The notes beneath the pieces were generated by a model. The model did not search any database and had not been told where the DNA came from. It worked only from the letters and a program-made list of their open reading frames with translations. Shown piece after piece: positions 10,324 to 30,169 of a stretch of DNA of 34,034 nucleotides (position 1 is the stretch's first letter; the number at the start of each line of letters is the position of its first letter). The stretch covers positions 1 through 34,034 of the forward strand of contig JAFGOX010000002.1 in the NCBI GenBank assembly GCA_016926295.1. Reading direction: 5' to 3'. Source of the stretch: Candidatus Iainarchaeum sp. (GTDB taxonomy: Archaea > Iainarchaeota > Iainarchaeia > JAFGOX01). Both the position numbers and the translations under genes were made by a program.

Positions 10324-10460
10324 TGCCGAGGGGGGGACTTGAACCCCCGACCTCTAGATATCTCAGAGACGCTATAATAAATTTCATCTGACTTTCGTCA
10401 TCATAACTCATAGGTCAACACTTATGAGTCTAGCGCTCTAACCAGCTGAGCTACCTCGGC
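10324..10460 (-). tRNA. tRNA-Met(CAT), probably elongator, with an intron of about 63 nt (approx. 10360-10422)
   Basis: Reverse complement GCCGAGG TA GCTCAGCTGGTTAGAGC G CTAGA CTCATAA [intron] A TCTAG AGGTC GGGGG TTCAAGT CCCCC CCTCGGC A. Acceptor, D, anticodon and T stems all pair. The anticodon stem lacks the GGG/CCC pairs expected of an initiator. tRNA-Ile2 is not excluded. Confidence 0.85.
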
Positions 10461-21936: not shown

Positions 21937-24900
21937 TCACTTAAACCATGAATCAATTGTTTTCTGTTTTCCTTTTTGTAATAAGTCCTCTTCTTTATAA
22001 CCTAATGCATACAGTATCCTCATCGCTGCCGGAACCACCTGATTGTTGATATAGTAGTCAATATCATAATCCCCTTCTTTTACATAGGCGGCAACATCTG
22101 CTTTCTCAGAGATTGATTTTCCCCGTGATGTGATTATGTAATCTATCATGCTTCCGAGCCCGTATTTGTCTCCGCGCTCGTTTGCCTTGATTGCGGCTGA
22201 TGTATGCGGGCCAAGGACGCTGTAATTCTCCAAAGGCCTTGTTATTTTTGTGTGAATTGTCAATTCGCCGTTTGAAACTTCCTTTTTCTTCAGCTTTTCT
22301 ATAACTTCCTTAACATAGGAAATTGCTTTTTTCTCATCGCCGTCTTTCAGTATGTAAGTCAGAACTTTCATTTGCGTGTCCCTTGCAATCGCCGACCAGT
22401 CCCTCCTTACCAGTTCAAATCCTTTGATTTTGATGTGATTGTTCTTGTCAATCAGCGCATATTTTTTCTTTGCACCTTTTTCTTTGTCTCTTGTGGAGAT
22501 GAATATCCCGCGCTTGTGGCTATTTTCAAATTCAAGCTCCATTTTGTCAGGTAGCTTTTTGTTAACCTTTTCCAGGAATTCGTAAATCTTGTCTTCGCCC
22601 CACCCTTTTGGTATTTTCACATAAACGCTATCTGTGTCAGAATAAATGGGCGTAAAACCGAAATCCTCTGCATCCTTTATTGTCTTTTTTATATATTCTC
22701 TTGCCCATGCAGTTATTGATTCTGCGCAGGGTCGTGAATACCATCTTGAGCGGGGGTAGCCTAAATATCCGTAGAAAGAGTTATGTACGCCAGTAAAACC
22801 AGTTCCTGCAAAAAATCTTTCTGTTTCATTTACGGATAAATCATAGACATATTTTTCCTTATGATTCTTAATTATTTCAATTTTTTTCACTTTGTCAAGT
22901 CCGATATTTCCATTAAGTAGTTCACTAATTAGTCTGGTATAATCATTTTTTCCTTTTTTTAATTCGTATTCTTTTATTATTGTGCGTGCTTTATTGAGTG
23001 GAATGGTTTTGCGGTGATCGCTTTTTAATGTTTTAACTTTTTTCAATTCCGTAAGCAATGGCAAAATATATTCTTTCGGTATTGTGTTTACATAAGTGTA
23101 TTCGCGAGTACGATTTCTTTTCATGAAAGGAAGCCCATCCCTTACCTCTAGCCGGTACACCCCTGAATCTTTCTTTATACATAAATCATTATATCCTAGT
23201 AATAGTATTAGGAAAGAAAGGTCGTTTATTAGTTTTTTTGAAATGCTTGTCATTCTTGGCCATGGCGTGGTTTGATTTCCATCGCCAAGATAATAGCCAT
23301 GTAGGAATTCTATTTGGCATTCCTTTCTTGCATTGAAAACACATGGGGGAATTCGTTTTTCCCTTGCATTATTTCCACAACCTAACGCCTTAATTATTAA
23401 AAATATAGATTTTTGTTGGAGATAACATCCTTTTTTGTCTGTTCTTGGGGTTTTCCCAAAGCTTTCTTTTATACATTTAGCTATGTTTTTTCTTATTTTT
23501 ATATTTACATCGTCTTGGGCTATTTGAATTCTAAAACTGGTTCCGGTTGGATTTTTTCTTTTGTCTGAGTAACCTTCGGCGGTATAATACCCAAGAAATT
23601 TATAGAAGCTTTTTACTGCCTTAATTGCAGCGGGTATGCTGGCCCCTGCTCCACCCATTGTGCTGATTTGCCAGTTTTTAATTTCATCATATTGTAAATA
23701 AGGAATAATTTTCAGTAAATCCGTTAATTTAGCAAAATAAGCGAAGTTTCTATACCAAAATAATTCGGAAAAAACAGTTTCAACTTCTAGGCGATTAATT
23801 CCGGCTTTGGTAATAATGAAATATTGTGATTGGCTTGGCACTTTCTTTGGTTTTTTTAATGCCTTAATATATCCTGATTTTTCTAGCTGGTTTAAATGTT
23901 TGGCAATGTTGTGCCGGTCTTTCTTAAGGTTATTACTTATATTGATGATGCAATCAGGACCCGTGTTTTTGAGGTAGTTTAATATTTTTATTCGGCTTCT
24001 TGTTTCGGTTCTTTTTGTGAAATGTTTATTGCTTACCCTTATATAGAGCCCTTCGATTTCTTTTTTTGGTAAAGTTGAAAGGATTTCTAAGAAGTTTATG
24101 TATTTTTCATACTTTGGTTTAATTTTAGGAATTCCTTTTGGAATAACAACGGGCGTTCCTTCTTTTAGGTTTTTTGTTTTTATTGTTCTGAACCCTTTTT
24201 TATTGAATGTAAATATCCCGTGGTCTTCTGTTAGTGTAATATCCCTGCCTGATTTGAGCGTTACTTTGTATAATTTTTTTGGTGCGTTATGCCGTATTAC
24301 TGATTTTATTGGTAAAAATGCAGTTTCTTTTTCATCAAAGCTCAATGTTTCGTAATCCTCTACTTTTTGGATTTCTGTTGTCCCTACTTTTTTTGGGTTT
24401 TTTATATTTTCATCAACAAAGGCTCCAATCGTTTTTATTTCTATTTTATTATTTTTTTTAAGGATTATGGGTTCAGTTGCCATTAATGAGTTTGCAACTA
24501 TTTTCAAGCCCCATTGATAACCATACAATGATTGGTAATTCTTGTCAGTTTTTTTCATTCCCTTCATTTTCTCTTTTGTCTTTATTCTTTTTCTTAAAAC
24601 TTCTTCAACTAGTTGGGGGATAAATCCTTGCTTGTCCTTACAGAACTTAAATCCCTTTGGGGAGATGTCAAAGTCTTTGCAGTTTTCAACATTCAGAGTT
24701 TCTGGTGCAATGTTGTGCGCAATCATGATTGTTGGGTATAGCGATCTAAAATCGTATTCAGCCAGATTCTCGTGTATTCCGGGTTTTGGTTCCATTACGT
24801 ATGCGCCCTCGTAAGGGTCGAACATTCTTTTTCTCACATCTCTCTCTTTTGGCCTTCGCGGCGGGATTTCACCTTTGTTGAATGCCTCTTTTACAATGTA

Positions 24901-26070
24901 ATGCTCAACCAGCGTTCCTGTGCTGACTCTTGTTGTTGTATAAAGCAAGGTCCCTGTTAATCTGCTAAGCTCGTAACCCAGGGTTTCATATTCCCTTCCC
25001 AATTCGTAGCATGCGATTGAATCCTGAAGGCAGTACTTTGCAAGCTTTTCCGGATTTTTCTCCCATTCTTTCCAAATCTTGTGACCGACAAATTCTATTT
25101 TAGATTTTCCAAGAAGCGCCTCATAAACCCGTTCTAATTTGTATTCTGGCAGGCTGACTGCCCCGCTCCTTGATAGGAACTGTATAACCTGATAAACATC
25201 AACGTGAACCCTTCCGGTTATTTTTCCCTTTGAAGTCATTCCCCCAGTTCTCAAAAATAATTCCGAGCCGTCCTTTCCTAATGGCAATTTTACTTTCAAA
25301 TATTTTGCCCTTTTTTTAAGATAGGGGAAGTCGAACATGTCTCCGTTGTAGGTCATTATTATATCAACATCGTCTTTGTTGACCTGTTTTACGAATTCCT
25401 CAATCATTTCTTTCTCATCTTTAACTTTTACAATGAACCCCTTTGTCTTTAGTTTTTCGCTCCATGTGAATAATTTTTCTGTTCCTTTGCTGTTGACATA
25501 GGAAATCATTATTATCGGATTCTTCTCATTCTCTGCATTTGGCATTTCCCCCTTTGCGTATACTTCCAAATCAAACGCGCCGATAATCAAATTGTCAATC
25601 TCGTGCTTTTTCTCTTTGATTGATTTTATAACAAACTTGTCGTCGACTTCTGCTTCGACCCAGCCCATGGGTTTTAGCTGATTTTCAATAATATAGTACT
25701 GCTCTGTGGATATCTCAAATCCAGTGGTTTCTTCTACCTCGTCCCATTCCTTAATTAGGTCCCTTATGGCGTTTATGTGCCTCCCGTTTTCAGTCATTAT
25801 TTTCAGCACTTCGCGGTCTTTTCCATGGAACTTTCTCTTTTCAATGTCTATTTTAGGGGGGGCAAAAGGCTCATTTTTATAGGTGAAGTCCAATTTCAGG
25901 ATTTTTTCCTTCAGAGAACTAGCATTATGTGAAGTGATTACGTAAAATCGGGGTTTGAAGTTCGTTTCTTTCAAAATATAGCTTTCTTTGCCCTTTATAT
26001 ACAATTCCAAGGCTGATTTGCCCTTTTCTTCCTTTTCTTGGATATCCAATAATACGCCTTCTACTTTCAT
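21937..26070 (-). CDS. polB: DNA polymerase family B, interrupted by an intein
   Basis: Exo motifs (GAFDLEVYA, TYNGDMFDFPYL, YCLQDS), Pol motifs (YDFRSLYPTIM; KIVAN/SFYGYLGYPRSRWY; YSDTDSVY). Start MKVEGVLLDIQEK (26070) or the TTG/ATG-proximal start at 26100. Confidence 0.96.
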   Translation of the reverse strand: MKVEGVLLDIQEKEEKGKSALELYIKGKESYILKETNFKPRFYVITSHNASSLKEKILKLDFTYKNEPFAPPKIDIEKRKFHGKDREVLKIMTENGRHINAIRDLIKEWDEVEETTGFEISTEQYYIIENQLKPMGWVEAEVDDKFVIKSIKEKKHEIDNLIIGAFDLEVYAKGEMPNAENEKNPIIMISYVNSKGTEKLFTWSEKLKTKGFIVKVKDEKEMIEEFVKQVNKDDVDIIMTYNGDMFDFPYLKKRAKYLKVKLPLGKDGSELFLRTGGMTSKGKITGRVHVDVYQVIQFLSRSGAVSLPEYKLERVYEALLGKSKIEFVGHKIWKEWEKNPEKLAKYCLQDSIACYELGREYETLGYELSRLTGTLLYTTTRVSTGTLVEHYIVKEAFNKGEIPPRRPKERDVRKRMFDPYEGAYVMEPKPGIHENLAEYDFRSLYPTIMIAHNIAPETLNVENCKDFDISPKGFKFCKDKQGFIPQLVEEVLRKRIKTKEKMKGMKKTDKNYQSLYGYQWGLKIVANSLMATEPIILKKNNKIEIKTIGAFVDENIKNPKKVGTTEIQKVEDYETLSFDEKETAFLPIKSVIRHNAPKKLYKVTLKSGRDITLTEDHGIFTFNKKGFRTIKTKNLKEGTPVVIPKGIPKIKPKYEKYINFLEILSTLPKKEIEGLYIRVSNKHFTKRTETRSRIKILNYLKNTGPDCIINISNNLKKDRHNIAKHLNQLEKSGYIKALKKPKKVPSQSQYFIITKAGINRLEVETVFSELFWYRNFAYFAKLTDLLKIIPYLQYDEIKNWQISTMGGAGASIPAAIKAVKSFYKFLGYYTAEGYSDKRKNPTGTSFRIQIAQDDVNIKIRKNIAKCIKESFGKTPRTDKKGCYLQQKSIFLIIKALGCGNNAREKRIPPCVFNARKECQIEFLHGYYLGDGNQTTPWPRMTSISKKLINDLSFLILLLGYNDLCIKKDSGVYRLEVRDGLPFMKRNRTREYTYVNTIPKEYILPLLTELKKVKTLKSDHRKTIPLNKARTIIKEYELKKGKNDYTRLISELLNGNIGLDKVKKIEIIKNHKEKYVYDLSVNETERFFAGTGFTGVHNSFYGYLGYPRSRWYSRPCAESITAWAREYIKKTIKDAEDFGFTPIYSDTDSVYVKIPKGWGEDKIYEFLEKVNKKLPDKMELEFENSHKRGIFISTRDKEKGAKKKYALIDKNNHIKIKGFELVRRDWSAIARDTQMKVLTYILKDGDEKKAISYVKEVIEKLKKKEVSNGELTIHTKITRPLENYSVLGPHTSAAIKANERGDKYGLGSMIDYIITSRGKSISEKADVAAYVKEGDYDIDYYINNQVVPAAMRILYALGYKEEDLLQKGKQKTIDSWFK
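22780..24489 (-). mobile_element. Intein with LAGLIDADG-type homing endonuclease in PolB (570 codons, AN/SFYGY site)
   Basis: Starts S(LMATEPIIL) after KIVAN, block B LKSGRDITLTEDHGIFTF, LAGLIDADG motifs FLGYYTAEGY and FLHGYYLGDG, C-terminal FAGTGFTGVHN followed by +1 Ser (SFYGYLGYPRSRWY). Confidence 0.95.
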
Positions 26071-26132
26071 ATCTTTCCCTAGGTAGATATTGCCCAGCAT
26101 GTTTATATAATTATTGAGTTTCTTTATTTTGC

Positions 26133-27239
26133 ATGGCTGAATTTGAAGTAACCCCGTGGGATGTATCCGGGCATGTTGACTATGATAAGCTGGTCAAGGA
26201 GTTTGGCACAGATTATATTACAGATAAGCAGCTTAAGGAAATAGAGGCGATTACCGGAGATTTGCACATATACCTCAGGAGAAAATTATTTTACTCTCAA
26301 AGAGATTTAGATGCAGTTCTGAAAGCGCACAAATCCGGAAAGGGGTTTTTCCTTTACACTGGTCGCGGACCGTCCGGTGATATGCACATCGGTCATTTGA
26401 TGCCGTTTATTTTTACAAAGTGGCTGCAGGAAAAGTTCAAAGTCAATTTGTATATTCAGATTACTGATGACGAGAAATTTGCATTTAAGCAGAATCTTTC
26501 TCTGGAAGACACAAGAAAAATGGCAAGAGAAGACATTGCAAATATTTTGGCATTGGGCTTTAGTCCGAAAAATACATTCATAATGCAGGATTCGGTTTAC
26601 ACACAGACATATCCGAAAGCGCTTGAATGGTCAAAGTACATTAACTTCTCAACAACAAAGGCGGTTTTCGGTTTTGAGAATGCAACGAATATCGCAAGCA
26701 TTTTTTATCCTGCGGTTCAGTGTGTGCCGATTACGTTTGAAGAGAAGCAGTGTTTGATTCCTTCAGCAATTGACCAGGACCCTTATTGGAGAATTGCAAG
26801 GGATGTTTCCCATAAAATAGGAAAAGGTTATCCAAAGACTGCGGCAATACACTCGAAGTTCATTCCCCCCCTTTCCGGTCTTGAGGGAAAAATGAGTTCT
26901 TCAATTGAGGGCTCGACAATAAAACTAAATGACACCCCGAAAGAAGTCAAAAACAAAATTAACAAATATGCTCTTACTGGCGGTCAGAACACAGTTGAAG
27001 AACAGAGAAAGAAAGGTGGAAATCCGGAAGGTTGCGTTGTTTTTGAATATTTGAAGATGCTGATGGAAGAAGATGACAAGCTTTTAGAAGAAAGATACAA
27101 AAACTGCAAAGGCGGAAAAGTTCTTTGCGGAGAATGCAAGCAGTATCTTATTGAGAAATTGAATGCTTTCTTGTCTGAGCACCAGAAAGCAAGAGCAAAG
27201 ATAACTGACAAGGATATTAACAAGTTCCTTCTTAAGTAA
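26133..27239 (+). CDS. trpS: Tryptophan--tRNA ligase (archaeal/eukaryotic type)
   Basis: TGRGPSGDMHIGHLMPFIFTKWLQ (HIGH), QIDQDPYWRIARDVSHK-like, KMSSS. Confidence 0.96.
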   Translation: MAEFEVTPWDVSGHVDYDKLVKEFGTDYITDKQLKEIEAITGDLHIYLRRKLFYSQRDLDAVLKAHKSGKGFFLYTGRGPSGDMHIGHLMPFIFTKWLQEKFKVNLYIQITDDEKFAFKQNLSLEDTRKMAREDIANILALGFSPKNTFIMQDSVYTQTYPKALEWSKYINFSTTKAVFGFENATNIASIFYPAVQCVPITFEEKQCLIPSAIDQDPYWRIARDVSHKIGKGYPKTAAIHSKFIPPLSGLEGKMSSSIEGSTIKLNDTPKEVKNKINKYALTGGQNTVEEQRKKGGNPEGCVVFEYLKMLMEEDDKLLEERYKNCKGGKVLCGECKQYLIEKLNAFLSEHQKARAKITDKDINKFLLK

Positions 27240-27765
27240 GTTTCTTTACACAGACGTACCATGGAACAAACCAATCTATTTTCTTATCTTTTCTTAATTC
27301 TTTGATTTCTTTTGTGGTTTTCTTTGGAATATATTTTCCATCTATGCTAATGTCGAATCTTAAAAAATCTGGCAAATAATCCTGATTAAAAAATAAGTCC
27401 CTAAGGTCATTACATGAAACTGGAAATATAAGATATAATTTTTCTATTTTCTTATCCTTTGCCCACGCTTCTGCTTTTTTAATTAGTTTTTTTCCAAGGC
27501 CTTTTCGTCTATATTCGGGTAATATACCCATTCCTACTATACCATAATTCTTTCCATATAATTTTTCTTCTATTCCTATTTCTATGAATCCTATTATTTC
27601 TCCATTTCCATTAACTCCTAAGAAACATACTTCACTTTCTGGGCCCTTTATGTCGTTGTATATTTGATTATACCCTACTCTGCGATAACAAGATTCATCA
27701 AAACAGGCTTTTGCAAGCTTGTTGAATTGTTTATAATACTCTTTAGTATATTTAATTATTTTCAT
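27232..27765 (-). CDS. GNAT family N-acetyltransferase
   Basis: YGIVGMGILPEYRRKGLGKKLIKKAEAWAKD acetyl-CoA binding motif; overlaps the upstream gene by 14 nt. Confidence 0.85.
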   Translation of the reverse strand: MKIIKYTKEYYKQFNKLAKACFDESCYRRVGYNQIYNDIKGPESEVCFLGVNGNGEIIGFIEIGIEEKLYGKNYGIVGMGILPEYRRKGLGKKLIKKAEAWAKDKKIEKLYLIFPVSCNDLRDLFFNQDYLPDFLRFDISIDGKYIPKKTTKEIKELRKDKKIDWFVPWYVCVKKLT

Positions 27766-28090
27766 CTAATACCCTTACTTCTCCAACTTCAGCATCTACC
27801 TCTATAGTGGCCCCATCCTTAATTTTTTCCATCGCATCTTTTACATTTACTATACAGGGAATGCCAAACTCCCTTGACACAATTGCTGCATGAGAAAGAA
27901 TTCCGCCTTCTGAGGTTACTATTGCACTGGCTTTTAATATAATATGAAGCATTTCTGGATAGGTAGCTGGCGTAACTAATATCCACCCCTTTTCGAATAC
28001 AGTATTGAGGCCTGCCCCTTCATCTATTTTTTTTACTTTTCCTTTTGCGTAACCCTTTGATGCTTTTTGCCCTTTCAATATAATCATCAT
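27752..28090 (-). CDS. Stand-alone PEP-utilizing enzyme mobile (swiveling phosphohistidine) domain protein
   Basis: 112 aa: KGYAKGKVKKI...ILVTPATYPEMLHIILKASAIVTSEGGILSHAAIVSREFGIPCIVNV...DGATIEVDAEVGEVRVL, with the catalytic SHAA histidine. Confidence 0.9.
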   Translation of the reverse strand: MMIILKGQKASKGYAKGKVKKIDEGAGLNTVFEKGWILVTPATYPEMLHIILKASAIVTSEGGILSHAAIVSREFGIPCIVNVKDAMEKIKDGATIEVDAEVGEVRVLDENN

Positions 28091-28923
28091 AATCCCTCAC
28101 TTTTGATAAATTCCGCTACGTCTGCTACTCGTTTTAAACCGCTTTTTGCCATGACCCCCATTAATAACGGGTAAGTCTCTTTTTCATTTATCTGTACAAA
28201 TTCTTTTTGTGATTTTACAACCCAAGAATATAGTTTTACTAACTCTGGATTAATTTCTTCTTTTTCTTCATTTTGTTGTTTTACACTAAAATCACTTAGT
28301 AAAATTTTTAATAAAATGTCCTTTGGATTCTCTTCGATATCATAAATTTTAGTTAATTCGCATAGTGTTAACATTAATTCTTTTTCATAATTTTTATTTT
28401 TATTTATTAAATCATTAAAGTTTTCTATGTCACTCAATTTTAATTTTGGTTTTATTTTTGCAATTATTTCATACATTTGATATACTGCTGTTTTTTCCCT
28501 ACTTATTTCTGATAGTTTTTGCAGTACGTCTATAATATCCGTATTTTTCCCTGTTAGGTTTCTTATTTTTTGTTCTATGTAACTTTGAAACCACCCCGCA
28601 CCCAACATAGCTGTACATAATGAATACCAAAAACTAGGCCAAATGTGAAGTTTTGCATGAATTAATTTTATTTCTTTCTCAGTTTTTGCATTTTTAAATT
28701 CTTCCGTTAATTTTGGAATCATTTCTTTTATCATTCTTTTTTTTCCATCAACCGCCATAATTGGATTTTTATCTAGTTTATCGCGGAATTTAGTTAAATC
28801 TGCATGTATTGTTTTTGAGGCGCCTAACATGAGGTTACAATATTTAATTAGATCTGGATCGTATAGTATTAAATCATCAATTTTGGCAATATGGGCATCT
28901 ATCATCCTCTTCGACTCCCGCAT
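28087..28923 (-). CDS. Hypothetical all-helical protein
   Basis: 278 aa; ATGA overlap with the downstream phosphohistidine-domain gene; 5' end overlaps the radical SAM gene (by 47 nt if started at 28923, 29 nt at 28905). Confidence 0.75.
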   Translation of the reverse strand: MRESKRMIDAHIAKIDDLILYDPDLIKYCNLMLGASKTIHADLTKFRDKLDKNPIMAVDGKKRMIKEMIPKLTEEFKNAKTEKEIKLIHAKLHIWPSFWYSLCTAMLGAGWFQSYIEQKIRNLTGKNTDIIDVLQKLSEISREKTAVYQMYEIIAKIKPKLKLSDIENFNDLINKNKNYEKELMLTLCELTKIYDIEENPKDILLKILLSDFSVKQQNEEKEEINPELVKLYSWVVKSQKEFVQINEKETYPLLMGVMAKSGLKRVADVAEFIKSEGL

Positions 28924-29956
28924 TTATAGTATATCCTATGCACCCCGTGCATATTTTTGCATATTTACAGTTGTTAATACACTTTTTAGGTCTTACGTTA
29001 AATTCTTTTTGAATTTTTTCCCACCAATTCCCTTTTTTATTTATGTTTCCCATTTTAAATGTTGGAAAATCAAACATGAAACAACAAGGATATATATCTC
29101 CATTTGGTAATATTTCGGCCTTTGTTTTTCCTGCGCTACATCCTACAAATAATTTATCAAAATTTGAGGCCGGTAGTTTTGAATTATTATGTTTAAAATA
29201 AAAGGGGGCATTCACGGTAATTGGCACATTACCTTTTAGTTCATCCACCGTTTTAAAAAATTCGTCTAGGGTTATTATAATGTCTCGATTTCGTTTTAGA
29301 TTTCCACAAAGTGCAGCATATAACAATAGCCAAGTTTCTAAATTATGAAATTTTAATAATTCACACCTTAATTTGTATAAGTTATTTATATTTTTGCGGT
29401 TTATGATAGTTGATACTGAAAAGGGAAGCTTCTTGTCTAGAGCTTTTAGATTATTTAATACATTATCATAACTTGTTGAATGAGTTATTTTATTGTGGAT
29501 ATCTTTTGTTCCCTCTATGGAAACAGTTAACTTTACATCATATTTTTTAATCCAGTTAATGTGTTCTTGTAAATTAGCCCCGTTAGTAGTAAGATTGCAT
29601 ATTACCTCGTTTTCATAAGCAAATTGTGAAAATTCTTGACTTATTTTTGATGCAACCGGCAAAAGTGGTTCCCCGCCTAGAATAGTTATTGCAAAGATTT
29701 TCTTTTCTAGAATATAGTTTTTTATATTTTGAACTGTTTCTTTGCTCATTGCACCTTTTGTTTTATTTTGTATGTAGCAAAAATCACAATTTTGATCGCA
29801 CAGTAGAGACGGATAAATAATTAATTCTAAAGGTGCGCCAAGTAATTTCCTTGAATTAGTATTATTTGTGTTTATCTTTATATTTTTTCCATCTGCAAGG
29901 AACCATTCGCCTTTTATGCAAGTAACATTACCTATGTTTTCTTTGCGTATTATCAT
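28877..29956 (-). CDS. Radical SAM protein with SPASM-like C-terminal Cys cluster domain
   Basis: LIIYPSLLCDQNCDFCYIQ (CX3CX2C), ITILGGEPLLP, NLTTNGANL; C-terminal GCSAGKTKAEILPNGDIYPCC...CINNCKYAKICTGCIGY...CPYC. Confidence 0.92.
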   Translation of the reverse strand: MIIRKENIGNVTCIKGEWFLADGKNIKINTNNTNSRKLLGAPLELIIYPSLLCDQNCDFCYIQNKTKGAMSKETVQNIKNYILEKKIFAITILGGEPLLPVASKISQEFSQFAYENEVICNLTTNGANLQEHINWIKKYDVKLTVSIEGTKDIHNKITHSTSYDNVLNNLKALDKKLPFSVSTIINRKNINNLYKLRCELLKFHNLETWLLLYAALCGNLKRNRDIIITLDEFFKTVDELKGNVPITVNAPFYFKHNNSKLPASNFDKLFVGCSAGKTKAEILPNGDIYPCCFMFDFPTFKMGNINKKGNWWEKIQKEFNVRPKKCINNCKYAKICTGCIGYTINAGVEEDDRCPYCQN

Positions 29957-29965
29957 AGTAAAGAA

Positions 29966-30121
29966 TTAAGGCACATATTGGCCATTTCTTTTTTTTGCTG
30001 TGGCATAGTCTTCAAGTGGTATTCCTACTGGGATTAGTTTTAAATTATTGGCCATTCTTGTATTTGCTTGTTTATTAGTGTTTAAATCAATATTTTTGTT
30101 TAAGCCCATTTTTAGATTCAT
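29966..30121 (-). CDS. Small peptide gene, candidate precursor/substrate of the adjacent radical SAM enzyme
   Basis: Manual translation MNLKMGLNKNIDLNTNKQANTRMANNLKLIPVGIPLEDYATAKKRNGQYVP* (51 aa). SD-like GGGGGT 6 nt before ATG, TATA-like box upstream, stop 9 nt before the radical SAM ATG. Below the length cut-off of the supplied ORF track. Confidence 0.7.
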   Translation of the reverse strand: MNLKMGLNKNIDLNTNKQANTRMANNLKLIPVGIPLEDYATAKKRNGQYVP

Positions 30122-30127
30122 AAATTT

Positions 30128-30133
30128 ACCCCC
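30128..30133 (-). promoter_or_regulatory. Shine-Dalgarno-like sequence GGGGGT for the small peptide gene
   Basis: CCTTGGGGGTAAATTTATG on the reverse strand; 6 nt spacer to ATG at 30121. Confidence 0.6.
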
Positions 30134-30160: not shown

Positions 30161-30169
30161 CTTTATAAG
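30161..30169 (-). promoter_or_regulatory. TATA-box-like element for the 30121-27232 operon
   Basis: CTTATAAAG on the reverse strand, about 40 nt upstream of the ATG, consistent with an archaeal promoter and a short 5' UTR. Confidence 0.5.

Follow-up and report, generated by a model that had tools for sequence, protein, structure and literature searches.

A SPASM radical SAM enzyme and a stand-alone swivel-histidine domain on a probable horizontally acquired island of an archaeal genome

Results

A compact five-gene block of foreign composition

We analysed a 34,034-nucleotide stretch of DNA from Candidatus Iainarchaeum sp. (contig JAFGOX010000002.1; hereafter the window), which makes up the entire contig C48 of a draft assembly of 592 kb in 52 contigs, ~79% complete. 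At 27232–30121, five minus-strand open reading frames (ORFs) encode a 51-aa candidate precursor peptide, a radical S-adenosylmethionine (SAM) enzyme with a SPASM domain, a predicted all-helical protein, a stand-alone phosphoenolpyruvate (PEP)-utilising mobile domain (a swivel phosphohistidine domain) and a GNAT acetyltransferase. A preliminary description of this DNA had proposed a modified-peptide operon resembling those for ribosomally synthesized and post-translationally modified peptides (RiPPs). Centrally, we find that a SPASM radical SAM enzyme and a stand-alone swivel-histidine domain are repeatedly associated, in a pairing that has spread horizontally, and that relatives of the block contain the rest of a split dikinase.

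All five frames lie at the coordinates first given for them, packed and overlapping as described. The 51-aa ORF (29966–30121, MNLKMGLNKNIDLNTNKQANTRMANNLKLIPVGIPLEDYATAKKRNGQYVP) is separated by 9 nt from the gene for the 359-aa radical SAM enzyme (28877–29956), which overlaps the gene for the 278-aa helical protein (28087–28923) by 47 nt, or by 29 nt when counted from an internal ATG. This gene overlaps that of the 112-aa swivel protein (27752–28090) by 4 nt, and the swivel gene overlaps that of the 177-aa GNAT (27232–27765) by 14 nt. The left junction is seamless, the GNAT stop overlapping the end of the convergent trpS by 8 nt. Upstream of the peptide gene on the same strand are an archaeal-type TATA-like box (CTTATAAAG, 30161–30169) and, 6 nt 5′ of the ATG, a Shine–Dalgarno-like GGGGGT (30128–30133) that complements the 3′ end of this genome's 16S sequence (...CACCTCC), one of the pairs being G:U.

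Composition was compared across all 592,378 bases of the assembly, using 886 sliding windows of block size and 548 gene-length ORFs. The GC content of the block is 0.305 versus 0.401 for the genome (standard deviation 0.022), below all 886 windows; the AT-richness noted in the preliminary description thus marks the most AT-rich 2.9 kb in the genome. GC content at third codon positions (GC3) is, for each of the five genes, among the lowest of the 548 ORFs, and codon choice departs from that of the genome (Gln CAA 0.91 versus 0.39; Val GTA 0.59 versus 0.29). Because of this extreme AT-richness and foreign codon usage, the block is very probably a horizontally acquired island, a feature that had previously been missed. 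Repeats at the island ends, direct or inverted, are only 9–11 nt long, which is the chance level. Other genomes of the phylum are related to the window genome at class level only.

A SPASM radical SAM enzyme with relatives in another phylum

The 359-aa protein matches the Pfam radical SAM (9e-14) and SPASM (8.7e-7) families, with C53, C57 and C60 forming the CX3CX2C motif; Pfam likewise backed the PEP-mobile and GNAT identities. The usual substrates of SPASM radical SAM enzymes are peptides encoded by adjacent genes, and the top-scoring models for this protein are the peptide maturases PapB, DynA and KxxxW. Its best NCBIfam match is PapB (NF047865; 80.5 bits, under the curated cut-off of 340), and its best match in the PDB is 5v1q (4.6e-17), which is SuiB. 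Neither Pfam nor NCBIfam detected a RiPP recognition element (RRE) or PqqD-type domain, and the N-terminal extension contains no recognised RRE. A separate RRE is absent from many SPASM systems, and diverged RREs can escape detection.

Across 395 relatives, of which 93 belong to the phylum of the window genome and ~300 to other phyla of archaea, the top radical SAM match was distant, at 32% identity (5e-31). The 93 genomes of the window's own phylum yielded no close radical SAM and no relative of the helical protein. A search of 303 genomes of a further archaeal phylum was the source of a match in genome G597, and three related loci were identified in total: one complete (L187 in G597), one cut (L188 in G504) and one decayed (L197 in G623). 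The window enzyme aligns with the first radical SAM of L187 (rSAM1) over its full length (32% identity; 2.9e-45 over residues 3–358). Conserved in this alignment are the ENIG and LxIYPSxLC blocks of the N-terminal part and every SPASM cysteine; the seven SPASM cysteines of the window protein are shared with L187 and L188.

The complete locus encodes, in order, a small ORF, rSAM1 (372 aa), a swivel protein (123 aa), a 699-aa protein and a PPDK_N ATP-grasp protein (248 aa, 7.9e-50). The small ORF lies directly upstream of rSAM1, and the swivel gene is again stand-alone and overlapping. In the 699-aa protein, the first ~310 residues match no Pfam family and appear to be helical, while residues 377–680 are a second radical SAM/SPASM enzyme (rSAM2). 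An S41 peptidase gene and a truncated LanC-like gene lie upstream on the opposite strand. In L188, which is cut by a contig end, the same order is kept from the C terminus of rSAM1 onward, and the synteny between the two loci includes a convergent gene of 193–203 aa. In L197, the swivel and ATP-grasp genes are intact, while stops interrupt both rSAM1 and the rSAM2 portion of the fusion. The set is rare, with a protein of the 699-aa type present in 3 of 299 genomes.

All three related blocks contain more AT than their flanks on at least one side. A tRNA-Gly gene adjoins the block in L187 (12996–13071) and L197 (9330–9403), with anticodons TCC and GCC, unlike the window island, which no tRNA gene adjoins. 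Genes for tRNAs are a classic kind of integration site, and the position of these two islands against tRNA-Gly suggests that the related islands integrate at tRNA genes. In G597, a GTPase gene (L187 4121–4459) ends at 112 aa precisely at the left edge of the island, as if broken by its insertion; the missing part of the gene was not found.

The additional genes in the relatives, together with the visible decay of the G623 copy, could mean that the window block is itself a decaying island, left over after loss of the ATP-grasp and second radical SAM genes and having little or no present function. This explanation sits poorly with five intact, tightly overlapping and codon-consistent frames and with the retention of both the swivel histidine motif and the Cys ligands, and we consider it very unlikely.

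No relative with the gene context of the block was found among viral contigs, phages and plasmids. A genome-collection scan with the 278-aa helical protein gave no match, and a scan with degenerate motif rows, checked against the true protein, recovered distant radical SAMs only. Another archaeal RiPP-like cluster was seen at L189 (3062–8754, G552:C11), encoding a 48-aa peptide ending GYSGPCSWCV, three radical SAM enzymes (one with SPASM), an arginase-family protein and a GNAT.

A candidate precursor peptide

The 51-aa ORF looks genuinely coding. At the composition of the block, an open frame of 50 codons has a chance of 0.9% (~0.009); the codon score of the ORF, under a model built from the other four genes, is equalled by 0.05% of random open frames, and its GC3 is in line with those genes. 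The small ORF of L187 encodes 41 aa, or 29 aa from a well-placed internal start, and ends KKGGHCCMG. The two peptides align without gaps over 32 residues at the same distance to the C terminus, and 0.7% of shuffles score as well (p about 0.007–0.01, for a single pair only), so that their kinship is suggestive only. Both loci with intact upstream DNA, the window and L187, carry a short ORF upstream of the radical SAM gene. The expectation that the small ORF would be conserved beside radical SAM homologues is at least partly borne out by its position in G597, with sequence similarity coming from that one pair.

The helical protein and a probable counterpart fused to a second radical SAM

Pfam gave no significant match for the 278-aa protein. 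An AlphaFold model of the protein alone is all helix at low confidence, with a mean predicted local distance difference test score of 41, and was unusable for a fold search. The protein is collinear with the 699-aa proteins over ~200 residues, with z values of 4.4–6.0, among them 5.9 for L188 (0 of 2,000 shuffles as good) and 4.4 for L187 (2 of 2,000), and ranks first of the genome's 486 proteins against both. It is probably, though not provably, homologous to the helical N-terminal domain of the L187 and L188 proteins. The fusion of this part to a second radical SAM elsewhere had escaped the preliminary description.

Two other assignments were rejected. As a substrate-binding domain of rifampin phosphotransferase (RPH), the 278-aa protein did not score above shuffles with an RPH-like R-domain profile built from 28 swivel-fused archaeal proteins; with an earlier profile it was just marginally ahead of the best shuffles. 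A comparison with the ~360-aa partners encoded 3′ of stand-alone swivel genes in other archaea was also negative.

Fusion of the helical domain to a radical SAM/SPASM domain in L187 and L188 implies that the two work together, and in the window their genes overlap by those 47 nt. The radical SAM enzyme might thus be the maturase of a partner protein, helical or swivel, as anaerobic sulfatase maturases are, with the 51-aa ORF a small accessory or regulatory protein. Such a role leaves aside the coding-like character of the small ORF, its precursor-like position in both phyla and the peptide maturases among the top-scoring models, and strikes us as unlikely.

The swivel domain as a probable part of a split dikinase

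The 112-aa protein is a PEP-utilizers mobile domain (PF00391, 2.7e-25) with the catalytic-histidine motif EGGILSHAAIV, and the 177-aa protein a GNAT (PF00583, 3e-16) whose gene shares the GC3 of the island. Of 106 distinct archaeal swivel segments, only those of the window, L187, L188 and L197 carry the signature ATYP(E/K) followed by LK, and all four adjoin the homologous radical SAM. Other archaeal swivel domains have T-x-P at this site, mostly with Thr, Asn, Ser or Arg; the overall swivel-domain score does not set the linked copies apart.

In RPH and PEP synthase, a swivel phosphohistidine carries phosphate from the ATP-grasp site to the substrate site (PMC4844700). Dikinases divided over separate polypeptides are also established: HpeHI, CreHI and the phenylphosphate synthase PpsAB are examples, and two-component RPH-like enzymes such as HpeHI are proven (PMC12167813). 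In L187, L188 and L197 an ATP-grasp gene adjoins the swivel gene; that the swivel domain belongs to a split dikinase, with its ATP-grasp next to it in relatives and not in the window, had gone unnoticed. The sole PPDK_N detected in the window genome is an intein-interrupted PEP synthase start at a contig end (L115 7761–9437, G000:C34), and the assembly yielded no PPDK_N or swivel domain besides this fragment and the island's own. The phosphate donor for the window swivel domain could be this PEP synthase, an unassembled gene or none.

A pathway to a small molecule has to be weighed here. A viperin- or MoaA-like radical SAM would act on a nucleotide or metabolite, a split dikinase would phosphorylate it and the GNAT acetylate it, the peptide being incidental. 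L187 rSAM1 scores 66 bits with viperin (cut-off 180), 63 with MoaA and 62 with PapB. The window enzyme reaches 38 bits with viperin, under the same curated cut-off of 180, and a defence-system library gave weak viperin matches for it and none for the other four proteins. Known RPH- and HpeHI-type dikinases, moreover, use small-molecule substrates (PMC4844700, PMC12167813). Set against this are the Pfam SPASM domain and seven conserved SPASM cysteines of the window protein, its best family being peptide maturases, and the S41 peptidase and LanC-like genes adjoining the L187 copy. We judge the small-molecule pathway rather unlikely.

Swivel domains are abundant in some archaea related to that of the window, whose small genomes each contain as many as 15 swivel genes. 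Tandem arrays of 340–520-aa swivel-domain proteins occur at L048 (G019:C7), L050 (G061:C40) and L053–L055 (G045, G043), and a stand-alone PPDK_N ATP-grasp gene adjoins those of L048 and L050. When the profile built from those 28 swivel-fused proteins is compared with RPH (5hv2, 5fbs), the alignment spans the substrate-binding and His domains; since the N-terminal parts align to the substrate-binding domain, the arrays look like expanded sets of split dikinases. A second two-gene unit, found in at least two archaeal phyla, pairs a stand-alone swivel gene with a downstream partner of ~360–390 aa, overlapping by ~35–125 nt. The partners form an unnamed family with HGPY and DLKxxELW motifs (swivel/partner: L041 2174–2503/1120–2214; L042 5136–5465/4097–5170; L043 4319–4648/3259–4443; L161 8846–9181/7765–8880).

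In the window as a whole, Rfam detected tRNAs only. One of them (10324–10460) is stretched over 137 nt, was missed by ARAGORN and probably contains an intron. A family-B DNA polymerase gene (21937–26100) is split by an intein of the LAGLIDADG type, with a helix-turn-helix segment inside.

Comparison with known systems

The block resembles systems with SPASM peptide maturases (PapB/ranthipeptide, KxxxW/SuiB, DynA) in its CX3CX2C motif, SPASM cysteines, directly upstream small ORF and best-scoring models. It differs in that the enzyme lies far under every curated cut-off, the peptide lacks Cys, the N-terminal extension shows no RRE and the enzyme is linked to a swivel domain. With HpeHI, CreHI and PpsAB, the related loci share an ATP-grasp and a swivel histidine on separate polypeptides (PMC12167813). 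Here, however, the swivel domain stands alone (112–123 aa), the third component takes the form of a helical protein or a radical SAM fusion, and the setting is that of a peptide operon, which in the window lacks the ATP-grasp. RPH and PEP synthase have a swivel domain with the GGxxSHAAIV histidine, but these are single polypeptides without a radical SAM, and no sequence homology could be detected between the 278-aa protein and the substrate-binding domain of RPH. Class II–IV lanthipeptide systems, which phosphorylate and then cyclise through LanC-type enzymes, recall the kinase-type enzyme, LanC-like gene and Cys-containing small ORF of L187. Yet that LanC-like gene is truncated, we saw no pSer/pThr lyase, and in the window block there is no LanC-like gene and the peptide lacks Cys.

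Discussion

Radical SAM and swivel genes recur together across archaeal phyla, probably with the helical part too, and in the relatives they are linked to an ATP-grasp and a second radical SAM. We interpret the window block as a mobile, horizontally acquired, RiPP-like archaeal island that combines a SPASM radical SAM acting on a short peptide with a split PEP-synthase-type dikinase and a GNAT, a reading to which we give an even chance. The 51-aa peptide would be the probable substrate, in which the SPASM enzyme would introduce a radical-based change. The helical protein may be the substrate-side part, and the swivel domain the phosphocarrier part, of a dikinase of the PEP synthase or RPH type. 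Phosphate would pass from ATP to the swivel histidine and on to the peptide or a group on it, with the window copy drawing on an ATP-grasp encoded outside the block, for instance that of the cellular PEP synthase. The GNAT may add an acyl group, as late tailoring or self-protection. In the relatives, the same gene row also encodes the ATP-grasp and the helical part with its fused second radical SAM. The peptide as substrate, a dikinase working on the same product, the GNAT role, the phosphate acceptor and the modified residue are inferences on our part. The strongest hint of a single product served by both radical chemistry and phosphotransfer comes from L187 and L188, where radical SAM, swivel, helical part and ATP-grasp share one gene row and the helical part is joined to a radical SAM. 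The S41 peptidase and truncated LanC-like gene at L187 also support the RiPP reading.

Several observations weigh against this interpretation. No other genome searched holds all five genes together, and GNAT was not found in L187, L188 or L197; of the co-occurrence proposed earlier, the radical SAM with a stand-alone swivel domain is the part that recurs in another phylum. A single pair underlies the likeness between small ORFs, and the 51-aa peptide contains no Cys or recognised RiPP motif. Under profile scoring with composition correction, the helical match is no better than the best shuffles. The radical SAM meets no NCBIfam cut-off, and viperin and MoaA match its L187 homologue as well as PapB does. 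There is no ATP-grasp in the window block; nor, as the preliminary description had observed, is there an exporter, protease or RRE/PqqD-like gene among the five. The modified-peptide operon it proposed remains the best reading, resting on a SPASM radical SAM core and partly supported.

More broadly, though less likely than not, the loci may represent a new class of peptide biosynthesis carried on AT-rich islands across archaeal phyla. One ribosomal peptide would then be the substrate of both a SPASM radical SAM and an ATP-dependent swivel-histidine dikinase in three parts, the helical one of which can be joined to a second radical SAM, so that radical chemistry is coupled to phosphorylation or to a ligation activated by phosphate. 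The enzyme types are known individually, radical SAM peptide maturation and swivel-histidine dikinases both being well known; their combination appears undescribed in the literature searched, which contained no account of the two in one operon. The preliminary description, too, did not recognise the gene combination as a named system. Small-genome archaea have hardly been explored for natural products and peptide cofactors, and these gene sets, compact and recurrent across phyla, are open to direct co-expression tests.

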